Assembly: GCF_003314975.1 (NCBI RefSeq)
Contig: NZ_QNRF01000001.1
Coordinates: 1 to 64,000 of the forward strand
Direction of reading: 5' to 3'
Source of the DNA: Marinomonas aquiplantarum
Lineage (GTDB): Bacteria > Pseudomonadota > Gammaproteobacteria > Pseudomonadales > Marinomonadaceae
DNA: 64,000 bases
A program made the position numbers and the translations under genes. The notes below the pieces were generated by a model. The model was not told the origin of the DNA. It worked only from the letters and a program-made list of their open reading frames with translations, and ran no database searches. Of the stretch, positions 1,223 through 46,174 are shown piece by piece. Position 1 is the stretch's first letter. Each line of letters opens with the position of its first letter.

Positions 1223-1270
1223 TCCCCTCCCCTTATGTCTTTGAAGGGGAGGGTTAGGGAGGGGTTCCGA
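1223..1270 (+). repeat. GC-rich palindromic repeat, type 2 unit
   Basis: The unit reads CCCCTCCCCTT, a short loop, then AAGGGGAGGGTTAGGGAGGGG. The arms are complementary and the tail sets the orientation. It is one of many copies in the window and lies in the degenerate half of the 161-bp duplication. Confidence 0.85.
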
Positions 1271-1380: not shown

Positions 1381-3396
1381 TTAGTCCCCTCCCCTTATGT
1401 CTTTGAAGGGGAGGGTTAGGGAGGGGTTCCGCTCTTTCAATAGGACAACCTTAGAACCTTCAGCTTGCTGATCTAATGCTCTTCTAGCATTCCACACTAA
1501 ATCGCCAATACCATCCGTTGGTTTAAAGTCAGTTGGAGCGTTGATCAAGATTTCACGCACTTTTTCATGATCAAAGTTATGACACGCTTTATCCAATTGC
1601 GCTATGGTGGCTTCAAAATCCGTCAGTGATAAAAACTGCTCATTGGCGGCCATAATGCGCTTATGCTCTGTCGCATGCACATTGTCACCGATAAGCAATT
1701 CTTCAAACAGTTTTTCACCAGGGCGCAAACCAGTAAACTGAATTTCAATGTCGCCATGCGGATTTTCATCTGATTTAACTTCCAGACCAGACAAACGAAT
1801 AAGGTTCTTGGCGAGATCGACTATTTTAACAGGCTCTCCCATATCCAACACAAACACGTCCCCCCCTTTGCCCATGGCACCAGCCTGGATCACCAGCTGA
1901 GCTGCTTCAGGAATGGTCATAAAATATCGAATAATATCGGGGTGAGTAACAGTGATAGGCTGATTATCCGAAATCTGTTTTTTAAAGACAGGAATAACCG
2001 AGCCAGAAGAGCCAAGCACATTACCAAAACGCACCATACAGAAACGCGTAAATTTTTCTTGTTTCTCGGCCTTTTTCGCTTCAGCCTCTGCTAATGCTTG
2101 TAGCCCCAGCTCAGCCATACGCTTTGTTGCCCCCATGACATTCGTTGGCCGTACTGCTTTATCCGTAGAGATTAAGACAAACGATTCTACACCACTTTCA
2201 ATCGCAGCTTTAGCAGCATAATAAGTTCCAAAAGCATTATTACGAACTCCTTCTACAACATTGTATTCCACCAAAGGCACATGCTTGTATGCGGCGGCAT
2301 GATAAACCGTATGCACACCGAAGGCTTTCATGGTTGATGCTAATCGATTAATTCGTTGAACCGAGCCAATCAAAGGCACAATGTCGACGTTATAAGACTG
2401 CTGTTCTAGGATTTCATTAAGCTCTTTATCAATTTGATAAACTGCATATTCAGAGACATCAAATAGAATTAACCGACGAGGCTGTTGTACTAAAATCTGA
2501 CGGCACAATTCAGAACCAATAGACCCACCCGCCCCCGTCACCATCACTACTTTACCGGAGATGTTAGCCTGCATTAACGAAGCCACAGGCTCAACCACAT
2601 CACGGCCGAGCAAATCATCGACAGCCACGTCCTGCAATTCACTCACTTTCGCCTTACCTGTCACTATGTCATTAAAGTCTGGCACAGTAAGCACTTCCAC
2701 AGGGTAAGGCATAAGCAACTCAATCACTTGCTTACGTTCAGCTCGGGTCGCTTTAGGAATCGCTAGCAACACTTTCTCAATCGAGTATTTCTCAATTAAT
2801 GCCTCAATCTTATCGACATTATAAACAGGAATACCTTGAATAATGGTATTGGCTAAAGAATGATCTCGATCGATGAACCCCTTCACTCGATAACTCGATG
2901 CCTGACGCAAGGCCAAAGTTAGCTGCCGACCAGTAGAACCGGCCCCAAACACCAACACAAATTCAGAGCCTTTTTGCGGCGGTTGCGTCAAGAGACCACG
3001 AATCAAAACACGAGAACCGCCACACAACATCACCAAAAATGGAAAATAAATAATAGGCACGGTACGTGGAATATCAGCTTCAAAAAAATACGCAAGAGAT
3101 GTAATACTAAATGCAGACACCGCCGCACCCAGCAAAATCGCACTAAAAGCATGAAAGGTTAGATAACGCAGGATGGCTCGATATAAGCCAAGCTTCACAT
3201 TCACAAACAAGGTAACGGCTATGGTGCCTGCTAAAACCAACCAAACGGAATGCCCCTGAAAGGCACTGAATTCACCTAGACGAGCCCAGTAAGCAAAAAC
3301 AAACGCAAGGTAAACAAAAACAGAATCGACAGCCAAACTGATAAGGCGTTTATAAAAACGCGGCAAAGACCAAAGAAAATCCAATTTTTTTACCAT
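1381..3396 (-). CDS. wbpM: Membrane UDP-GlcNAc 4,6-dehydratase, WbpM/PglF type
   Basis: The 671-residue inner-membrane protein has about four N-terminal helices (residues 15-125), a nucleotide-binding core with GAGSTG near 151-156, and a C-terminal dehydratase domain with GAGGSIG at 288-294. The usual SDR Tyr is replaced by Met in the MGATK motif (421-425), as is normal in this class. It should convert UDP-GlcNAc to the 4-keto-6-deoxy intermediate for QuiNAc, FucNAc or related sugars. It is separated from the rest of the locus by a 430-bp repeat-filled gap, so it may be transcribed on its own. The last 16 residues are encoded by a palindromic repeat and are unlikely to be ancestral. Confidence 0.9.
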   Translation of the reverse strand: MVKKLDFLWSLPRFYKRLISLAVDSVFVYLAFVFAYWARLGEFSAFQGHSVWLVLAGTIAVTLFVNVKLGLYRAILRYLTFHAFSAILLGAAVSAFSITSLAYFFEADIPRTVPIIYFPFLVMLCGGSRVLIRGLLTQPPQKGSEFVLVFGAGSTGRQLTLALRQASSYRVKGFIDRDHSLANTIIQGIPVYNVDKIEALIEKYSIEKVLLAIPKATRAERKQVIELLMPYPVEVLTVPDFNDIVTGKAKVSELQDVAVDDLLGRDVVEPVASLMQANISGKVVMVTGAGGSIGSELCRQILVQQPRRLILFDVSEYAVYQIDKELNEILEQQSYNVDIVPLIGSVQRINRLASTMKAFGVHTVYHAAAYKHVPLVEYNVVEGVRNNAFGTYYAAKAAIESGVESFVLISTDKAVRPTNVMGATKRMAELGLQALAEAEAKKAEKQEKFTRFCMVRFGNVLGSSGSVIPVFKKQISDNQPITVTHPDIIRYFMTIPEAAQLVIQAGAMGKGGDVFVLDMGEPVKIVDLAKNLIRLSGLEVKSDENPHGDIEIQFTGLRPGEKLFEELLIGDNVHATEHKRIMAANEQFLSLTDFEATIAQLDKACHNFDHEKVREILINAPTDFKPTDGIGDLVWNARRALDQQAEGSKVVLLKERNPSLTLPFKDIRGGD
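1384..1431 (+). repeat. GC-rich palindromic repeat used as coding sequence
   Basis: This copy is nearly identical to the one at 1223-1270 but lies inside the WbpM-like gene. Read on the minus strand it encodes the last 16 residues, ending in LPFKDIRGGD, just before the stop at 1381. The native C-terminus was therefore probably replaced or extended by repeat insertion. Confidence 0.85.
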
Positions 3397-3454: not shown

Positions 3455-3776
3455 GAACTGTTTTTATTCCCTCCCTTCATGTCTTCCAAGAGGCAGACGA
3501 ATCATTTTTATCCCCCCCCTCATGTCTTTCAAGGGGCAGACGAACTGTTTTTATCCCCTCCCCTTATGTCTTCCAAGGGGCAGATGAACTGTTTTTATCC
3601 CCTCCCCTTATGTCTTTCAAGGGGAGGGCTAGGGAGGGGTTCCGCTCTTATTCCCCCTACAAAGATGGAGGCTGGATTCCGCTCTTGCTCTATCCCTCCC
3701 TAATACACCCAAGGAGAAAACGACTGTTTTTATCTCCTCCCCTTATCTCTTTCAAGGGGAGGGCTAGGGAGGGGTC
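3455..3776 (+). repeat. Tandem 44-bp array of degenerate palindromic repeats
   Basis: Four head-to-tail units start at about 3455, 3499, 3542 and 3586. Each begins GAA(C/T)(T/C) followed by a T-rich run and CCCTCCCCTTATGTCTT, and the fourth runs into a full AGGGGAGGGCTAGGGAGGGG tail. Another full copy lies at about 3723-3776. The array fills most of the 432-bp space between the WbpM-like gene and the phosphoglycosyltransferase gene. I see no gene there. Units vary and there are no unique spacers, so it is not a CRISPR. Confidence 0.85.
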
Positions 3777-24494: not shown

Positions 24495-24901
24495 GTAAGC
24501 GCCTTATGAGTAAGATGCTATTAATAACAAACGGATATAGACAATAACAAAGAAGAGATCAGTAAAAACTGATTTAAGGGAAAAGAGGGCAAATGTTTGA
24601 TCGCTTGTACTATCCCTCTAAGCTTCTTCAGTGAACATCCTATACCGTTCATTTGCTGAACAAGCTTAAATGAGAATGAGCAATATTGCAAAGAATGTGT
24701 TTGAAAAGAGTTTGTAAAATGGATGCTTTTGGAGCTCGTAGCGGAAGTGACAAGTTATCGACCCCATCCTAGCCTTCCCCTTGAAGAAAAGGGAAGGAAC
24801 TTGCAACCCCATTCTAGCCTTCCCCTTGGAAGAGATAAGGGGAAGGAATAAGGTAAACCCCCATCCAATCACCTGCCTTTGAAGAAAGGGGGAGGGACAA
24901 T
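24495..24901. other. 407-bp intergenic region with inverted palindromic repeats
   Basis: The left part (24495-24760) has no recognisable gene; it has a small hairpin ATCAGT-AAAA-ACTGAT near 24560. The right part (about 24762-24900) holds three units of the GC-rich palindromic repeat family in the orientation opposite to those at 1-4 kb, for example CCCCATCCTAGCCTTCCCC. An open frame across the repeats on the minus strand has no coding character. Confidence 0.7.
24762..24900 (-). repeat. Three GC-rich palindromic repeats, minus orientation
   Basis: The units start near 24762, 24807 and 24859. The first two have the tail read as CCCCAT(C/T)CTAGCCTTCCCC and complementary AAGGG arms. The third is more diverged. 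They separate wzz from the MarR gene and could act as a transcription or RNA-stability barrier between export and biosynthesis genes. Confidence 0.8.
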
Positions 24902-34680: not shown

Positions 34681-36120
34681 ATGTTATCTATTAAGCATCA
34701 TGGAGCGGTACATGGGGTGACAGGCTCTTGTCACGAATTGTTTGTCGATGAACAGCAGTCTGTGTTGATCGATTGTGGCTTATTTCAAGGGGCTGAGACC
34801 TCCAGTCTAGGAGCCACTGCGGATCACCTGGAAATAGACTTTGATCTCTCAGCCGTACAAGCTTTGATCGTCACTCACGTTCATATCGATCATGTAGGGC
34901 GAATCCCTTATCTGCTGGCAGCTGGTTTCACTGGGCCAATTTATTGTTCTAAACCCAGCGCAACCTTATTGCCTTTGGTCATCGAAGATGCATTGAAAGT
35001 TGGTGTAACGCGTAATAAGAGCATTATTGACGCTTGCTTAGAGCGCATCCATGAGCAAATCGTCCCTTTGGATTATCAAGAGTGGATGAAAATTCCCATG
35101 AAAACGGAGACGAAGGTTCAACTGCGTCTTTCGCGCGCGGGCCATATTCTGGGCTCGGCTTACGCCTCTTTTAGAGTGTCTAATGAGGCCATCAAATTGC
35201 AAAACAAGCCTTATCATGATGTGGTGTTTTCAGGTGATCTCGGTGCGCCTCACTCCCCTTTATTGCCCGCTCCCAAATCCCCACATAAGGCCGACCAATT
35301 GGTGATCGAAAGTACCTACGGCGATCGCAATCATGAAGACAGATCAAGCCGTGTTGATCGCTTACAACAGAGTCTAGAGCGAGCTTTAAGCGACTCTGGC
35401 ACCGTGTTGATTCCCGCCTTTAGTATCGGCCGCACACAAGAGTTACTCTACGAATTGGAATCCATCATTCATAAAAATCGCCAGAAGCCCGTCAGTCACA
35501 CCGCTTCTGGCGTCCAATTAGATTGGCAAGATCTGGACATTATTATCGACTCCCCACTCGCCAATCGCTTCACTCAGGTTTATCAGTCATTAGCGCCCTA
35601 TTGGGATGACGAAGCGCAAAGTCGCATTGCTGAAGGTCGCCATCCTCTGGATTTTGAGCAGGTTACCACCATTGATGACCACGAAACCCACCTTCAGACT
35701 GTCGATTATTTGAAACGCCAAACCCGGCCCGCCATTGTTATTGCGGCATCAGGCATGTGTGCAGGTGGCCGTATTGTGAATTACATCAAGGCGCTGATCG
35801 GTGATGAACGTAATGACATTGTATTTGTTGGTTACCAAGCCGCTGGCACGCCTGGACGAGAGATATTAACTTACCACGACAAAGATGATGGCTATGTGAC
35901 ATTAGACGGCGAACGCTTTGCGATTAAAGCGCAGGTACAGCAGATTAGTGGCTACTCCGCCCATGCTGGGCAAGAAGATTTGTTGAACTTCATCCGCCGC
36001 ATGCGCAGCCAACCAAAGCGTATTCACATAGTGCATGGTGATGACCAAGCCAAACTGGCTCTCAAGAAGTGTATTAAGAAAGAGTTTAAAGGTGTTGAGG
36101 TTGTTATCCCAGACAGCTGA
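34681..36120 (+). CDS. MBL-fold/beta-CASP hydrolase with RMMBL domain
   Basis: The 479-residue protein has the metal-binding motif THVHIDHVG (His66, His68, Asp70, His71), a beta-CASP region with IESTYGDRNH and IPAFSIGRTQE, and a C-terminal RMMBL part (SGYSAHAGQEDLLNF and IHIVHGDDQAK). These are marks of CPSF73-like RNases and related nucleases. Such standalone proteins are common in bacteria, but their targets are not well known. It is unlikely to be linked to the gfc genes (154-bp gap). Confidence 0.85.
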   Translation: MLSIKHHGAVHGVTGSCHELFVDEQQSVLIDCGLFQGAETSSLGATADHLEIDFDLSAVQALIVTHVHIDHVGRIPYLLAAGFTGPIYCSKPSATLLPLVIEDALKVGVTRNKSIIDACLERIHEQIVPLDYQEWMKIPMKTETKVQLRLSRAGHILGSAYASFRVSNEAIKLQNKPYHDVVFSGDLGAPHSPLLPAPKSPHKADQLVIESTYGDRNHEDRSSRVDRLQQSLERALSDSGTVLIPAFSIGRTQELLYELESIIHKNRQKPVSHTASGVQLDWQDLDIIIDSPLANRFTQVYQSLAPYWDDEAQSRIAEGRHPLDFEQVTTIDDHETHLQTVDYLKRQTRPAIVIAASGMCAGGRIVNYIKALIGDERNDIVFVGYQAAGTPGREILTYHDKDDGYVTLDGERFAIKAQVQQISGYSAHAGQEDLLNFIRRMRSQPKRIHIVHGDDQAKLALKKCIKKEFKGVEVVIPDS

Positions 36121-36133
36121 GGTTGAAAGTTAT

Positions 36134-36345
36134 CCCCTCTAACTCCCCCTTAAAAAGGGGGAGAACCAAAAGCGTCCCCTCCCCTTAACAAGGGGAGGGC
36201 TAGGGTGGGGTTAGGTCTATCACTTCCCTGTAACCCCCTCTAACTCCCCCTTGAAAAGGGGGAGAACCAAAAGCGGCTTCGCACAGGAAATGGAGATTTT
36301 TAATCCCCTCCCCTTAACAAGGGGAGGGCTAGGGTGGGGTGAATT
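36134..36345 (+). repeat. Composite palindromic repeat block left of the DUF559 gene
   Basis: Two unit types alternate: type 1 (CCCCTCTAACTCCCCCTT, loop, AAGGGGGAGAACC) and type 2 (TCCCCTCCCCTT, loop, AAGGGGAGGGCTAGGGTGGGG), joined by short linkers. Positions 36201-36271 are identical over 71 bp to 36830-36900 on the other side of the DUF559 gene. The last linker and type 2 unit resemble the block at 39206-39312. Confidence 0.9.
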
Positions 36346-36375
36346 ACCTTTAAAAAAACACATAGGAGTCAAGGA

Positions 36376-36750
36376 ATGACGAAACTATTTAATTTAAAGC
36401 GAACAAAGCGTTTCCGTGCCGATTTAAGAACAAATATGACAGAGCCTGAAAGGCGTCTTTGGAGACACCTTAGAGGATGCCAATTCGGCGTTAAATTTAG
36501 ACGACAATATGGCATAGGATGCTATGTCGTCGATTTCTACTGTCCTTCTTTAAAACTGGTAATTGAAATAGATGGTGATAGCCATTTTTCTACACAGGGT
36601 ATTGCTCATGATCGTATTCGAGATGAATACCTCTCTTCTATGGGGATAAGTATTATTCGCTTTACAAATGACGAAATTATGCATGAGCTTGGCTCAGTGG
36701 TTCTTGCTATTGATGCACAAATTACACTACCCCCTCTAACTCCCCCTTAA
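36376..36750 (+). CDS. DUF559 Vsr-like endonuclease-domain protein
   Basis: The 124-residue protein has TEPERRLWRHLRG (22-34), KFRRQYGIGCYVVDFYC and KLVIEIDGDSHF, then HDRIRDEYLSSMGISIIRFT. Asp53, Glu64 and Asp66 fit the nuclease core of the DUF559/Vsr group. ATG follows AGGAGTCAAGGA. The last codons (about LPPLTPP) and the TAA come from a palindromic repeat. It sits between two repeat blocks that share a 71-bp perfect direct repeat. The substrate is unknown; a link with repeat movement is possible. Confidence 0.85.
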   Translation: MTKLFNLKRTKRFRADLRTNMTEPERRLWRHLRGCQFGVKFRRQYGIGCYVVDFYCPSLKLVIEIDGDSHFSTQGIAHDRIRDEYLSSMGISIIRFTNDEIMHELGSVVLAIDAQITLPPLTPP

Positions 36751-37003
36751 TAAGGGGGAGAACCAAAGGAGAACTCCCCTTAAAATGGGGGTGAACAAAA
36801 GCGTTCCCTCCCCTTACCAAGGGGAGGGTTAGGGTGGGGTTAGGTCTATCACTTCCCTGTAACCCCCTCTAACTCCCCCTTGAAAAGGGGGAGAACCAAA
36901 GGAGAACTCCCCTTAATAAGGGAAAGGACCAAAAGCGTCCCCTCCCCTTATGTCTTCCAAGGGGAGGGCTAGGGTGGGGTTATGTCTACCCCCCTTGAAA
37001 AGG
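36728..37003 (+). repeat. Composite palindromic repeat block right of the DUF559 gene
   Basis: Alternating type 1 and type 2 palindromic units fill this stretch, including the 71-bp perfect copy (36830-36900) of the left block. The block begins within the 3' end of the DUF559 gene and ends near the stop of the convergent lysR gene. It contains no gene of its own. Confidence 0.9.
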
Positions 37004-37042
37004 GAGGTTAGCTATGGCAACAAACAAAGCAGCGCTAAGTCA

Positions 37043-37942
37043 TCAAAAGTAGTCTCGCTTCGCTTCATAAGCTTGTTTAATGTGTTCGATTAACCGCTGT
37101 AACTTTTGCGGTAAGTATTTTGTGTAAGGGTAAATGGCGTAAACCTCCAATTGCCTTGCTTGATAGTCATTTAAAATGGTCACCAAGTTACCCGCCACTA
37201 GATCTTCGTAAACACAGCAACGAGGCACATACACAATACCAAAGTTATCTAACGCAGCCTTTCGCAATGCCTGAGCATTATTTGTCATCAAGCAACCACT
37301 AATGCGAACGTGTTCTTCAACCCCATTTTTAGTAAAGCGCCAATCAAATGAGCCTTTTGCTTGATAGGTATAAGCCAAACAGTTGTGTGCTTTCAAATCC
37401 TCTATTTTTTGTGGTTCACCATGAGTTTTCAAGTAATCGGGGGAACAACATACCACCCATCTGGACTGAATTAAGGGACGCGCGATCAAGCTGGAATCGT
37501 CTAAAACGCCGGTTCGAATGGCGATATCAATGCCTTGTTCGATCAAGTCGACAAAGTCATTTTCCAATCGCATATCTACTTTGATATTTGGGTACTTTTG
37601 ACAAAAACTGGCGACCGCTTCCGCTAGTAAAAGCTCCCCTGAAATGGTCGGCACGGACATTTTGATCAACCCGCTCATGTCTGTATTGTGCTCAGATACA
37701 GCCGCGATGGCATCTGTCACTTGTCCTTCAATGTGTCTCGCATGCGCGTACAGCGCCTCGCCCGCTTCGGTTAAACTCAAGCGACGAGTGGTTCGATGAA
37801 GCAACTGTGCCCCTAGTCTGGCCTCTAGTTTACTTATGCGCTTGCTTAATGCTGGTGTCGACATATCCGCTTGCTCGGACGCTTTTACAAAGGATCCCGC
37901 TTTCACCAGGGTCACAAACAGAATCAGATCTTCGGCATTCAT
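37043..37942 (-). CDS. LysR-family transcriptional regulator
   Basis: The 299-residue protein has the N-terminal winged helix (LFVTLVKAGSFVKASEQADM, SKRISKLEARLGAQLLHR) and a substrate-binding domain from about residue 90, with the DLIEQGIDIAIRTG segment common in the family. It is divergent from the alpha-hydroxyacid dehydrogenase gene with a 110-bp gap, so it probably controls that gene in response to its substrate or product. Confidence 0.9.
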   Translation of the reverse strand: MNAEDLILFVTLVKAGSFVKASEQADMSTPALSKRISKLEARLGAQLLHRTTRRLSLTEAGEALYAHARHIEGQVTDAIAAVSEHNTDMSGLIKMSVPTISGELLLAEAVASFCQKYPNIKVDMRLENDFVDLIEQGIDIAIRTGVLDDSSLIARPLIQSRWVVCCSPDYLKTHGEPQKIEDLKAHNCLAYTYQAKGSFDWRFTKNGVEEHVRISGCLMTNNAQALRKAALDNFGIVYVPRCCVYEDLVAGNLVTILNDYQARQLEVYAIYPYTKYLPQKLQRLIEHIKQAYEAKRDYF

Positions 37943-39205: not shown

Positions 39206-39312
39206 ACCCCCTTTCAAAAAGGGGGAGAACTAAGAGCAGCGGCGCATAGTAAATGAAGCACTTTTAATCCCCTCCCCTTATGTCTTTCAAGGGGAGGGCT
39301 AGGGAGGGGGAA
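39206..39312 (+). repeat. Composite palindromic repeat after the LldD-like gene
   Basis: A type 1 unit (CCCCCTTTCAAAAAGGGGGAG), a linker similar to that at about 36270-36300, and a type 2 unit (CCCCTCCCCTTATGTCTTTC, then AAGGGGAGGGCTAGGGAGGGG) follow the stop codon. As the linker is conserved, the type 1 plus type 2 pair seems to move as one element. Confidence 0.85.
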
Positions 39313-46050: not shown

Positions 46051-46174
46051 CCCATCCTAGCCTTCCCCTTGAAGTAAGGGGAAGGAACAAAAACACTTAG
46101 CCCTTTCCCCTGCTAAGGGAAGGAACAAAAGCTCTAAGCTCCTCCCCCTACTAAGGGGGAGGCTGGGAGGGGGT
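46051..46174. repeat. Palindromic repeats between rhaS and rhaT
   Basis: Two units in minus orientation (CCCCATCCTAGCCTTCCCC and a shorter TTTCCCC...AAGGGAAGG) are followed by one in plus orientation (CTCCCCCTACTAAGGGGGAGG, then TGGGAGGGGG). The block touches the rhaS stop codon. Position between the binding-protein gene and the rest of the transporter suggests a role in unequal expression by RNA stabilisation or partial termination. Confidence 0.8.

Follow-up and report, generated by a model that had tools for sequence, protein, structure and literature searches.

REP and REPIN sequences are short palindromes arranged in inverted doublets, the REPIN being the inverted-doublet structure itself. 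In REP-RAYT systems a gene of the HUH/Y1 type lies between the repeats, which carry a GTAG or CGTC tag at one end. Whether palindromes without a tag go with particular proteins is a question that Di Nocera et al. (2013, PMC3733652) do not settle. Another class, the BoxC, PIT or TM repeats, is present in E. coli K-12 and has been linked to strain-to-strain instability by Holder et al. (2015, PMC4666352). As far as its text is available, this study counts 23 copies of the triplex motif in E. coli MG1655, whose loci vary more between strains than controls; the TM_ECO single strand forms a triplex in solution, and stable triplex was not seen in E. coli cells. According to the same available text, the genes flanking the motif have no function in common, nothing related to mobility was seen near it, the mechanism was called unclear and a companion nuclease gene is not described. 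The DUF559 (COG2852) proteins, for their part, form a widespread family of which little function is known. In the literature open to us, from which subscription journals are mostly missing, we did not find any link of DUF559 to these repeats.

In the window (the whole 64-kb stretch of Marinomonas aquiplantarum DNA that was analysed), a DUF559 gene is enclosed by arrays of palindromes (Table 1). The first-pass annotation had described REP-like palindromes that accompany a Vsr-like nuclease, with the gene between the copies of a 71-bp perfect direct repeat and its last codons and stop made of repeat sequence, and we confirmed each of these points. The repeat copies are identical over exactly 71 nt, are not extendable either way and sit inside a 125-nt repeat pair of 92% identity; the open reading frame is where it was placed; its end lies in unit 5, the stop codon falling in stem and loop; and both the repeats and, in a structural model, the Vsr-like fold were recovered. 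The gene is an intergenic ORF, not inside another gene, and next to it are genes for a beta-CASP metallo-hydrolase and for a LysR protein. No intron family was found at 35900-37300, where the only hits were three miRNA matches far below cut-off.

Table 1. Positions of the DUF559 gene, of the cassette around it and of the dispersed units in the window.
Feature	Position	Strand	Details
DUF559 (PF04480) nuclease gene, 124 aa	36376..36750	+	Pfam E 1.9e-30; 105.3 bits vs curated cut-off 20.6
71-bp exact direct repeat, left copy	36201..36271	+	from tail of unit 2 to unit 3
71-bp exact direct repeat, right copy	36830..36900	+	from tail of unit 6 to unit 7
Triplex-type unit 1	36131..36163	-	hairpin 36143-36163, left tail, match 0.89
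Triplex-type unit 2	36177..36212	+	hairpin 36177-36199, spacer CTA, tail match 1.0; ends doublet 1
Triplex-type unit 3	36232..36264	-	hairpin 36244-36264, left tail, match 1.0
Triplex-type unit 4	36306..36341	+	hairpin 36306-36328, gene-facing tail, match 0.9; ends doublet 2
Triplex-type unit 5	36728..36760	-	hairpin 36740-36760, gene-facing tail, match 1.0; holds last codons and stop of the ORF
Triplex-type unit 6	36806..36841	+	hairpin 36806-36828, tail match 1.0; ends doublet 3
Triplex-type unit 7	36861..36893	-	hairpin 36873-36893, left tail, match 1.0
Triplex-type unit 8	36940..36981	+	hairpin 36940-36968, 9-nt loop, tail match 1.0; ends doublet 4
Dispersed unit without DUF559	1225..1253	+	tail match 1.0
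Dispersed unit without DUF559	1387..1415	+	tail match 1.0
Dispersed unit	3600..3628	+	tail match 1.0
Dispersed unit	3736..3762	+	tail match 0.89, spacer 5
Dispersed unit, TTCC-type arm	24818..24846	-	tail match 0.9
Dispersed unit	39270..39298	+	tail match 0.9; adjoins hairpin 39207-39225, poor tail (0.62)
Dispersed outward doublet	46061..46162	.	hairpins 46061-46085 (left tail 1.0) and 46141-46162 (right tail 1.0)

The cassette has a regular layout of two inverted doublets, the DUF559 gene and two more inverted doublets. All eight hairpins are perfect and have the C-rich arm first, the arms being CCCTCCCCTT/CTCCCCCTT, and in each of the four doublets the G-rich tails lie at the outer ends, to the left of the left unit and to the right of the right one. 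When up to three mismatches were allowed, two palindrome patterns gave 3 and 4 matches in the window, all of them mismatch-free, against averages of 0.01 and 0.00 in dinucleotide shuffles, and the left flank folded as single-stranded DNA is stabler than its shuffles (z -3.8, 0/200). We observed that the tails are complementary to the hairpins in a particular way: set against the reversed purine arm, G in the tail faces G in the arm and T or A in the tail faces A in the arm, which is the arrangement of an antiparallel third strand. This third-strand match reaches at least 0.9 in seven of the eight tails and 0.89 in the other, with a spacer of 3 nt, as in the unit with arm AAGGGGAGGG, spacer CTA and tail GGGTGGGGTT. 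In the window the spacers are CTA or TTA, then comes the G-run, and GTAG is absent from them.

Because of this third-strand tail, we place the repeats with the known BoxC/PIT/TM class. Both kinds have a pyrimidine arm, a loop, a purine arm, a 3-nt spacer and a second purine run, and both are intergenic, dispersed and partly in tandem inverted pairs; they differ in that the strict TM_ECO consensus has 0 matches in the M. aquiplantarum genome (G000). With the REP/REPIN-RAYT systems (PMC3733652, in its accessible part) the locus shares short palindromes, inverted doublets, dispersed non-autonomous copies and a gene between repeats. The difference is that DUF559, with its predicted Vsr-fold nuclease, takes the place of the HUH/Y1 gene between the repeats, and that in the window a G-rich third-strand tail stands where a GTAG tag would be.

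Nine further hairpins of the same kind, some without a good tail, lie in the 64-kb window, at 1.2, 1.4, 3.6, 3.7, 24.8, 39.2-39.3 (two) and 46.1 kb (two). Not one hairpin of this kind arose in any of three mononucleotide shuffles of the window. Over the whole genome, the short-loop core CCCTTNNNAAGGG has at least 46 copies, a lower bound because this pattern misses longer loops, and its reversed control has 0. Neither these nine hairpins nor the regularity of eight hairpins in four doublets figured in the first-pass annotation, and the third-strand tail is also an addition of the present analysis.

The window gene is the sole match to PF04480 at E 0.001 in the M. aquiplantarum genome, and its closest named relative among the matches listed is in Marinomonas sp. 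TW1 (95% identity). In 81 sequences, E25, W29, R43, Q44, D53, F54, Y55, E64, D66, G67, H70 and D79 are invariant, among which D53, E64, D66, H70 and D79 are, we assume, the EDxHD motif of the protein. An AlphaFold2 model has a pLDDT of 85, with low values over residues 69-71, H70 among them. Its best match, in structure (Z 15.0, 93 residues, 1.3 A, 41% identity) as in profile search (1.5e-32), is NGO0050 (3HRL). The homing endonuclease I-Bth0305I (3R3P) also matches in both (Z 11.4, 95 residues, 2.9 A; profile 1.4e-5), and the profile search gave no other match at 0.01. Among the structural matches Vsr comes fourth with 1CW0 (Z 9.6, 101 residues, 2.4 A), after a mitoribosomal protein (9.9), and 1VSR gives 9.3, at 20% identity; mitoribosomal proteins match the model about as well as Vsr does (9i05 Z 9.9, 6z1p Z 8.9). 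On the basis of the model, the DUF559 protein is a small predicted endonuclease of the Vsr fold (PD-(D/E)XK or EDxHD-like), and the E. coli protein YcjD, annotated DUF559, is counted as a PD-(D/E)XK member in the available part of PMC1189080. The predicted fold is common to Vsr-like EDxHD homing endonuclease I-Bth0305I and, unlike the latter, the DUF559 gene is bracketed by repeats with no intron found. It is also common to the Vsr mismatch endonuclease (1CW0, 1VSR), whose sampled loci are without such repeats (0/30). We did not call DUF559 a defence system since the PADLOC matches were only partial (DpdF 3e-8, mREase_II 7e-7). Relatives were sparse in phages (6 records) and in plasmids (55 records), and none of them reached 60% identity.

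We then looked at the flanks of DUF559 genes in other genomes. PF04480 was found in 12 of 48 Marinomonas genomes, as eight stand-alone genes and four matches within larger open frames (1581 to 1939 aa), which we left out of the stand-alone count. Reading the stretches by eye, as the first-pass annotation had proposed for related genomes, we saw palindrome arrays on both sides of all eight stand-alone genes, with loops of 3 to 9 nt; in genome G023 the left array is more than 1 kb from the gene, beyond two ORFs. We also assembled the best 80 of at least 550 loci from a scan with one genome per species, a sample which, being the best 80, leans toward relatives of the window protein and in which some flanks are short. 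By their record titles these loci come from Proteobacteria, Bacteroidota, Patescibacteria, Nitrospirota, Chloroflexota, Cyanobacteria, Planctomycetota, Elusimicrobia and others. Scoring C-arm-first hairpins with a perfect stem of at least 8 bp and a loop of 3-14, we counted, in these best 80 of at least 550 loci, 175 in the first 250 bp from the gene (4.5/kb), 11 in the next 250 bp and 0 to 0.18 per kb beyond 500 bp; hairpins of mixed composition had no peak near DUF559 in the same loci. A C-arm-first hairpin lies within 500 bp of the gene in 73 of these best 80 loci, on both sides in 52, and is missing in seven, compared with 101/2099 and, for both sides, 7/2099 control placements in the same loci.

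Similar results were obtained with other samples, using a hairpin at 900 bp or less from the locus centre as the measure. It was present in 29 of 30 loci that are the top-scoring matches in the phylum, with at most one per genome, and in 19 of 20 loci of weaker matches hand-picked from the lower part of the match list. By the same measure, Vsr genes gave 0/30, Y1 transposase genes, many of them of IS200-like size, 1/30, and stretches about 30 kb from DUF559 genes 1/19 (13 from contigs of the hand-picked sample and six from contigs of other DUF559 matches). DUF559 genes are consequently much nearer to the palindromes than Vsr genes, Y1 genes and control placements, in agreement with what the first-pass annotation had put forward. 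This linkage across phyla suggests that DUF559 may be the enzyme that cuts or spreads the repeats. Similarity of the nucleases and similarity of the arms are weakly correlated over the 73 loci (Mantel r 0.18, 0/999 permutations as high) and across phyla (r 0.11, 10/999 as high), a covariation that fits a recognition of shape above one of sequence and would also fit plain common descent.

The tails were then scored over 134 distinct loci pooled from the best-80 sample, the eight Marinomonas genes and the samples of 30 and 20; overlaps were counted once, including the DNA shared by the Marinomonas and best-80 sets (L007/L022, L004/L023, L003/L025), and L266, at a contig end, was excluded. At least one near-gene hairpin is present in 126 of these loci, for a total of 334 units, and the third-strand match is 0.9 or higher in 216 units, in 90 loci, about a third of units being below; tails shuffled over 50 rounds reached this value 2.4 times on average and 8 at most. 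The match of a unit to its own tail was 0.969 and to swapped tails 0.772, a comparison biased by the selection of units for an own match of at least 0.8, so we relied on the shuffled tails. The spacer is 3 nt in 194 of 236 third-strand matches (a count that still holds the three duplicate loci), GTA or GTAG spacers were seen in a few loci (L037, L067), and a coarse threshold test on G counts gave a G-quadruplex motif in 64 of 167 tailed sides. We observed a rule of orientation as well: in 123 of 142 flanks the unit nearest to the gene has its tail turned inward (binomial p 8e-20). Of the 78 pairs of adjacent units, 48 are tail-outward doublets, the remaining arrangements counting 15, 9 and 6.

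The gene and its arrays are present or absent at homologous sites. In Marinomonas, DUF559 occupies three sites across eight genomes. At the site of the window, G036 has a cassette of the same kind and G029 has an array and, by eye, an IS3-like insertion ahead of the gene; the G029 copy resembles the one that G026 has at astB (67%) more than it does that of the window (54%). At the same site G026 has no gene, with one unit of at least 8 bp and one degenerate unit, and G027 has neither such a hairpin nor a DUF559 match, the neighbouring gene being 91-92% identical and the downstream genes appearing rearranged. The astB junction, compared in 30 loci of 48, carries the gene and arrays in three and hairpins without a detected gene in four, in one of which an N gap separates the arrays; in the other 23 there is no hairpin of at least 8 bp. 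G018, whose astB is 96% identical to that of G028, kept one degenerate unit by eye. An IS3-like transposase gene and TetR or other ORFs (named by eye) also lie inside Marinomonas arrays. The view of the first-pass annotation that gene and repeats could be a small mobile cassette is partly supported: different Marinomonas genomes have gene and array, solo units or neither at the same junction, and three sites are used in eight genomes. We found no case of precise excision at the Marinomonas sites compared. Among nine stretches from E. coli strains without ycjD, no clean empty ycjD site was found; seven have efflux genes beside fabI or sapF, on which the accessible part of PMC12817139 bears, and two stop short. 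These differences between sites fit gain and loss around resident units and do not go as far as proving transposition.

The first-pass annotation had also proposed to test whether repeat number follows the presence of the gene. The motif is commoner in genomes with the gene, though some repeat-rich genomes are without it, and neither of the two outcomes which that annotation had named as speaking against its view came about. In 299 genomes of the phylum, the strict TM motif was found in 41 of 80 with a strong DUF559 match (best E of 1e-12 or lower) and in 15 of the 219 others, among which 28 weaker matches are counted (Fisher p 2.7e-16, a value confounded by shared ancestry). This confounding is reduced by stratification within 15 listed mixed families, where the figures are 22/49 and 8/111 (p 1e-10). 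The 39 other strong-DUF559 genomes are without the strict motif, and their units have other arms or none. In Marinomonas, the eight genomes with the gene have 2, 2, 3, 6, 7, 17, 17 and 28 copies of CCCCTTNNNAAGGGG outside the cassette and the 40 without it a median of 1, so that copies are commoner with the gene (p 6.7e-4, again confounded by shared ancestry); one of the 40 has 38 copies and another 14. For E. coli, in 60 rows taken across the ranking, the median of other matching places is 21 with ycjD (n=37) and 5 without (n=23), or 6 once a 0.79-Mb record is dropped, a contrast that is confounded by lineage; as many as 20 such places are still present where ycjD is missing. We searched ten repeat-bearing genomes without a stand-alone gene (eight of the 15 motif-bearing ones without a strong match and two Marinomonas) for a remnant of DUF559: there was none in eight, and the other two have only weak PF04480 matches inside frames of 585 and 2404 aa. 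Repeat-rich genomes without DUF559 count against a strict dependence of the repeats on the gene. REPs can outlive their RAYT, and these orphan repeat genomes resemble that situation.

Taken as a whole, these observations make it rather probable, in our opinion, that the DUF559 gene belongs with the repeats in a single nuclease-repeat system, the repeats being BoxC/PIT/TM-type elements. Several other explanations have to be considered. The repeats could be regulatory or insulating DNA, acting as terminators or as silencers of transcription or translation around a potentially harmful nuclease gene whose protein is inert on them; the confinement of the enrichment to the first 250 bp and the window stop codon inside a hairpin agree with this, and a terminator role has been suggested for such hairpins in Enterobacter sp. 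638 (PMC2869309). Insulation does not predict the third-strand tails, their orientation or the far-off copies, nor is it favoured by the absence of enrichment of mixed-composition hairpins and of this kind of hairpin at the 30 Vsr loci, and PIT elements are reported to have neither promoter nor terminator activity (PMC4666352), so we regard it as unlikely. It could also be that something other than DUF559 spreads the arrays, that these are unstable hotspots of insertion and that DUF559 has landed in them as a passenger, as the IS3-like transposase gene and the TetR and other ORFs seen by eye in arrays, and repeats without a DUF559 gene, would indicate. A passenger is hardly likely because the repeats flank 29/30 and 19/20 loci which were not chosen for repeats and the tails point inward in 123/142 flanks, the other gene families compared being Vsr and Y1 only.

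The Vsr fold of the model leads to a different proposal, in which DUF559 would work in VSP-type mismatch repair, with the C-rich repeats as substrates prone to methylation or deamination. Caulobacter cells that lack the methyltransferase ScmA need the DUF559 protein VsrA for their SOS response (PMC12907096); the authors of that study consider VsrA a possible cause of the breaks, and the tie described there is to a cytosine methyltransferase, not to repeats. Given that the ScmA sites (YGCCGGCR) are unlike the window arms and that true Vsr genes are without the repeats (0/30), we attach little probability to this proposal. Least of all do we expect a RAYT/HUH (Y1) transposase to move the repeats as it does for GTAG-tagged REPs: inverted doublets do resemble REPINs, a few loci have GTA/GTAG spacers and the M. 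aquiplantarum genome has one Y1 match, but the 3.5 kb surrounding this Y1 gene are free of hairpins of at least 8 bp, only one of 30 Y1 loci has this kind of hairpin and the spacers of the window are free of GTAG, which makes it very improbable.

The best reading is, for us, that DUF559 would be the dedicated nuclease of the repeats, comparable with REP-RAYT or with a homing endonuclease; we infer both the binding and the cutting of the repeats by DUF559, and their spread would follow from it. The repeat has a polypyrimidine arm and a complementary polypurine arm joined by a loop, then a spacer of about 3 nt and a G-rich run able to fold back as an antiparallel third strand. Units tend toward inverted doublets with tails outward, the gene being placed between two units with gene-facing tails. 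Most likely, DUF559 would recognise the repeat either folded, as hairpin or triplex, or as duplex, and nick or cut at it or beside it. Other copies could then serve to mend the break, or the array could slip and recombine, so that repeats, and occasionally the gene, would be copied, deleted or moved, and units elsewhere in the genome would be non-autonomous relatives surviving the loss of the gene. A larger picture can be drawn, that of a pan-bacterial mobile element whose Vsr-fold nuclease would recognise intrastrand-triplex DNA, bracketed by inward-facing units and spreading via cut folded repeats at replication forks, an element that would supply the origin long missing for the BoxC/PIT/TM repeats and for their reported genome instability; we consider it tentative and rather doubtful.

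Tying the repeats to DUF559 would merge two questions into one, which is approachable in K-12 with ycjD. The E. coli repeat arm CCCTCTCCC led in the literature to Holder et al. (2015, PMC4666352), and in the copy list of that article, as far as available, copy 9 (1,351,204-1,351,239) adjoins ycjD (1,351,407-1,351,760), annotated DUF559.

Downstream of the beta-CASP metallo-hydrolase gene that neighbours DUF559, we observed near-identical tandem doublets in the Marinomonas genome G029 (L244:1987-5344) and at locus L002; an IS3-like transposase gene, named by eye, separates the array from DUF559, and the array has the appearance of a hotspot for insertions. A TetR-like ORF and another ORF (names by eye) lie between the repeat array and DUF559 in G023 (L004:300-1430); the corresponding stretch of G007 (L006) holds the array only. 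Repeat arrays may collect cargo. Downstream of the beta-CASP gene in other Marinomonas genomes (L160 and L161), the arrays consist of a different repeat, GTAGGCCGGATGAGG...CCGG, similar to classical REPs.

In the genome of M. aquiplantarum, units with a TTCC-type arm form a second subfamily, which is dispersed (L013, L015, L020, L021) and includes two units in the window.

Units with a TTCC-type arm in the window
Feature	Arm	Positions
TTCC-type unit	CCTTCCCCTT	24818-24846
TTCC-type unit	CCTTCCCCTT	46061-46085

The same genome carries a palindrome, CCCCCTTTAATCCCCC...GGGGGATTAAAGGGGG (L014:917-960 and 2240-2290), related yet distinct, which adjoins other genes, away from DUF559. It also has an array upstream of a ureE-like gene (L016; name by eye). 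In G019, a genome without DUF559, triplex-type doublets lie in intergenic regions of the urea-transport and urease genes, again named by eye (L242).

In the fabI-ycjD-sapF stretch of E. coli MG1655 (L208:5195-5830), a TM unit lies downstream of ycjD, the E. coli family member. A second hairpin-like stretch overlaps the 3' end of ycjD, and the start region of the gene is inside a long inverted repeat, CACCTCATTCTGACAA. Efflux genes are present at the ycjD site in seven of the nine stretches opened from strains lacking ycjD.
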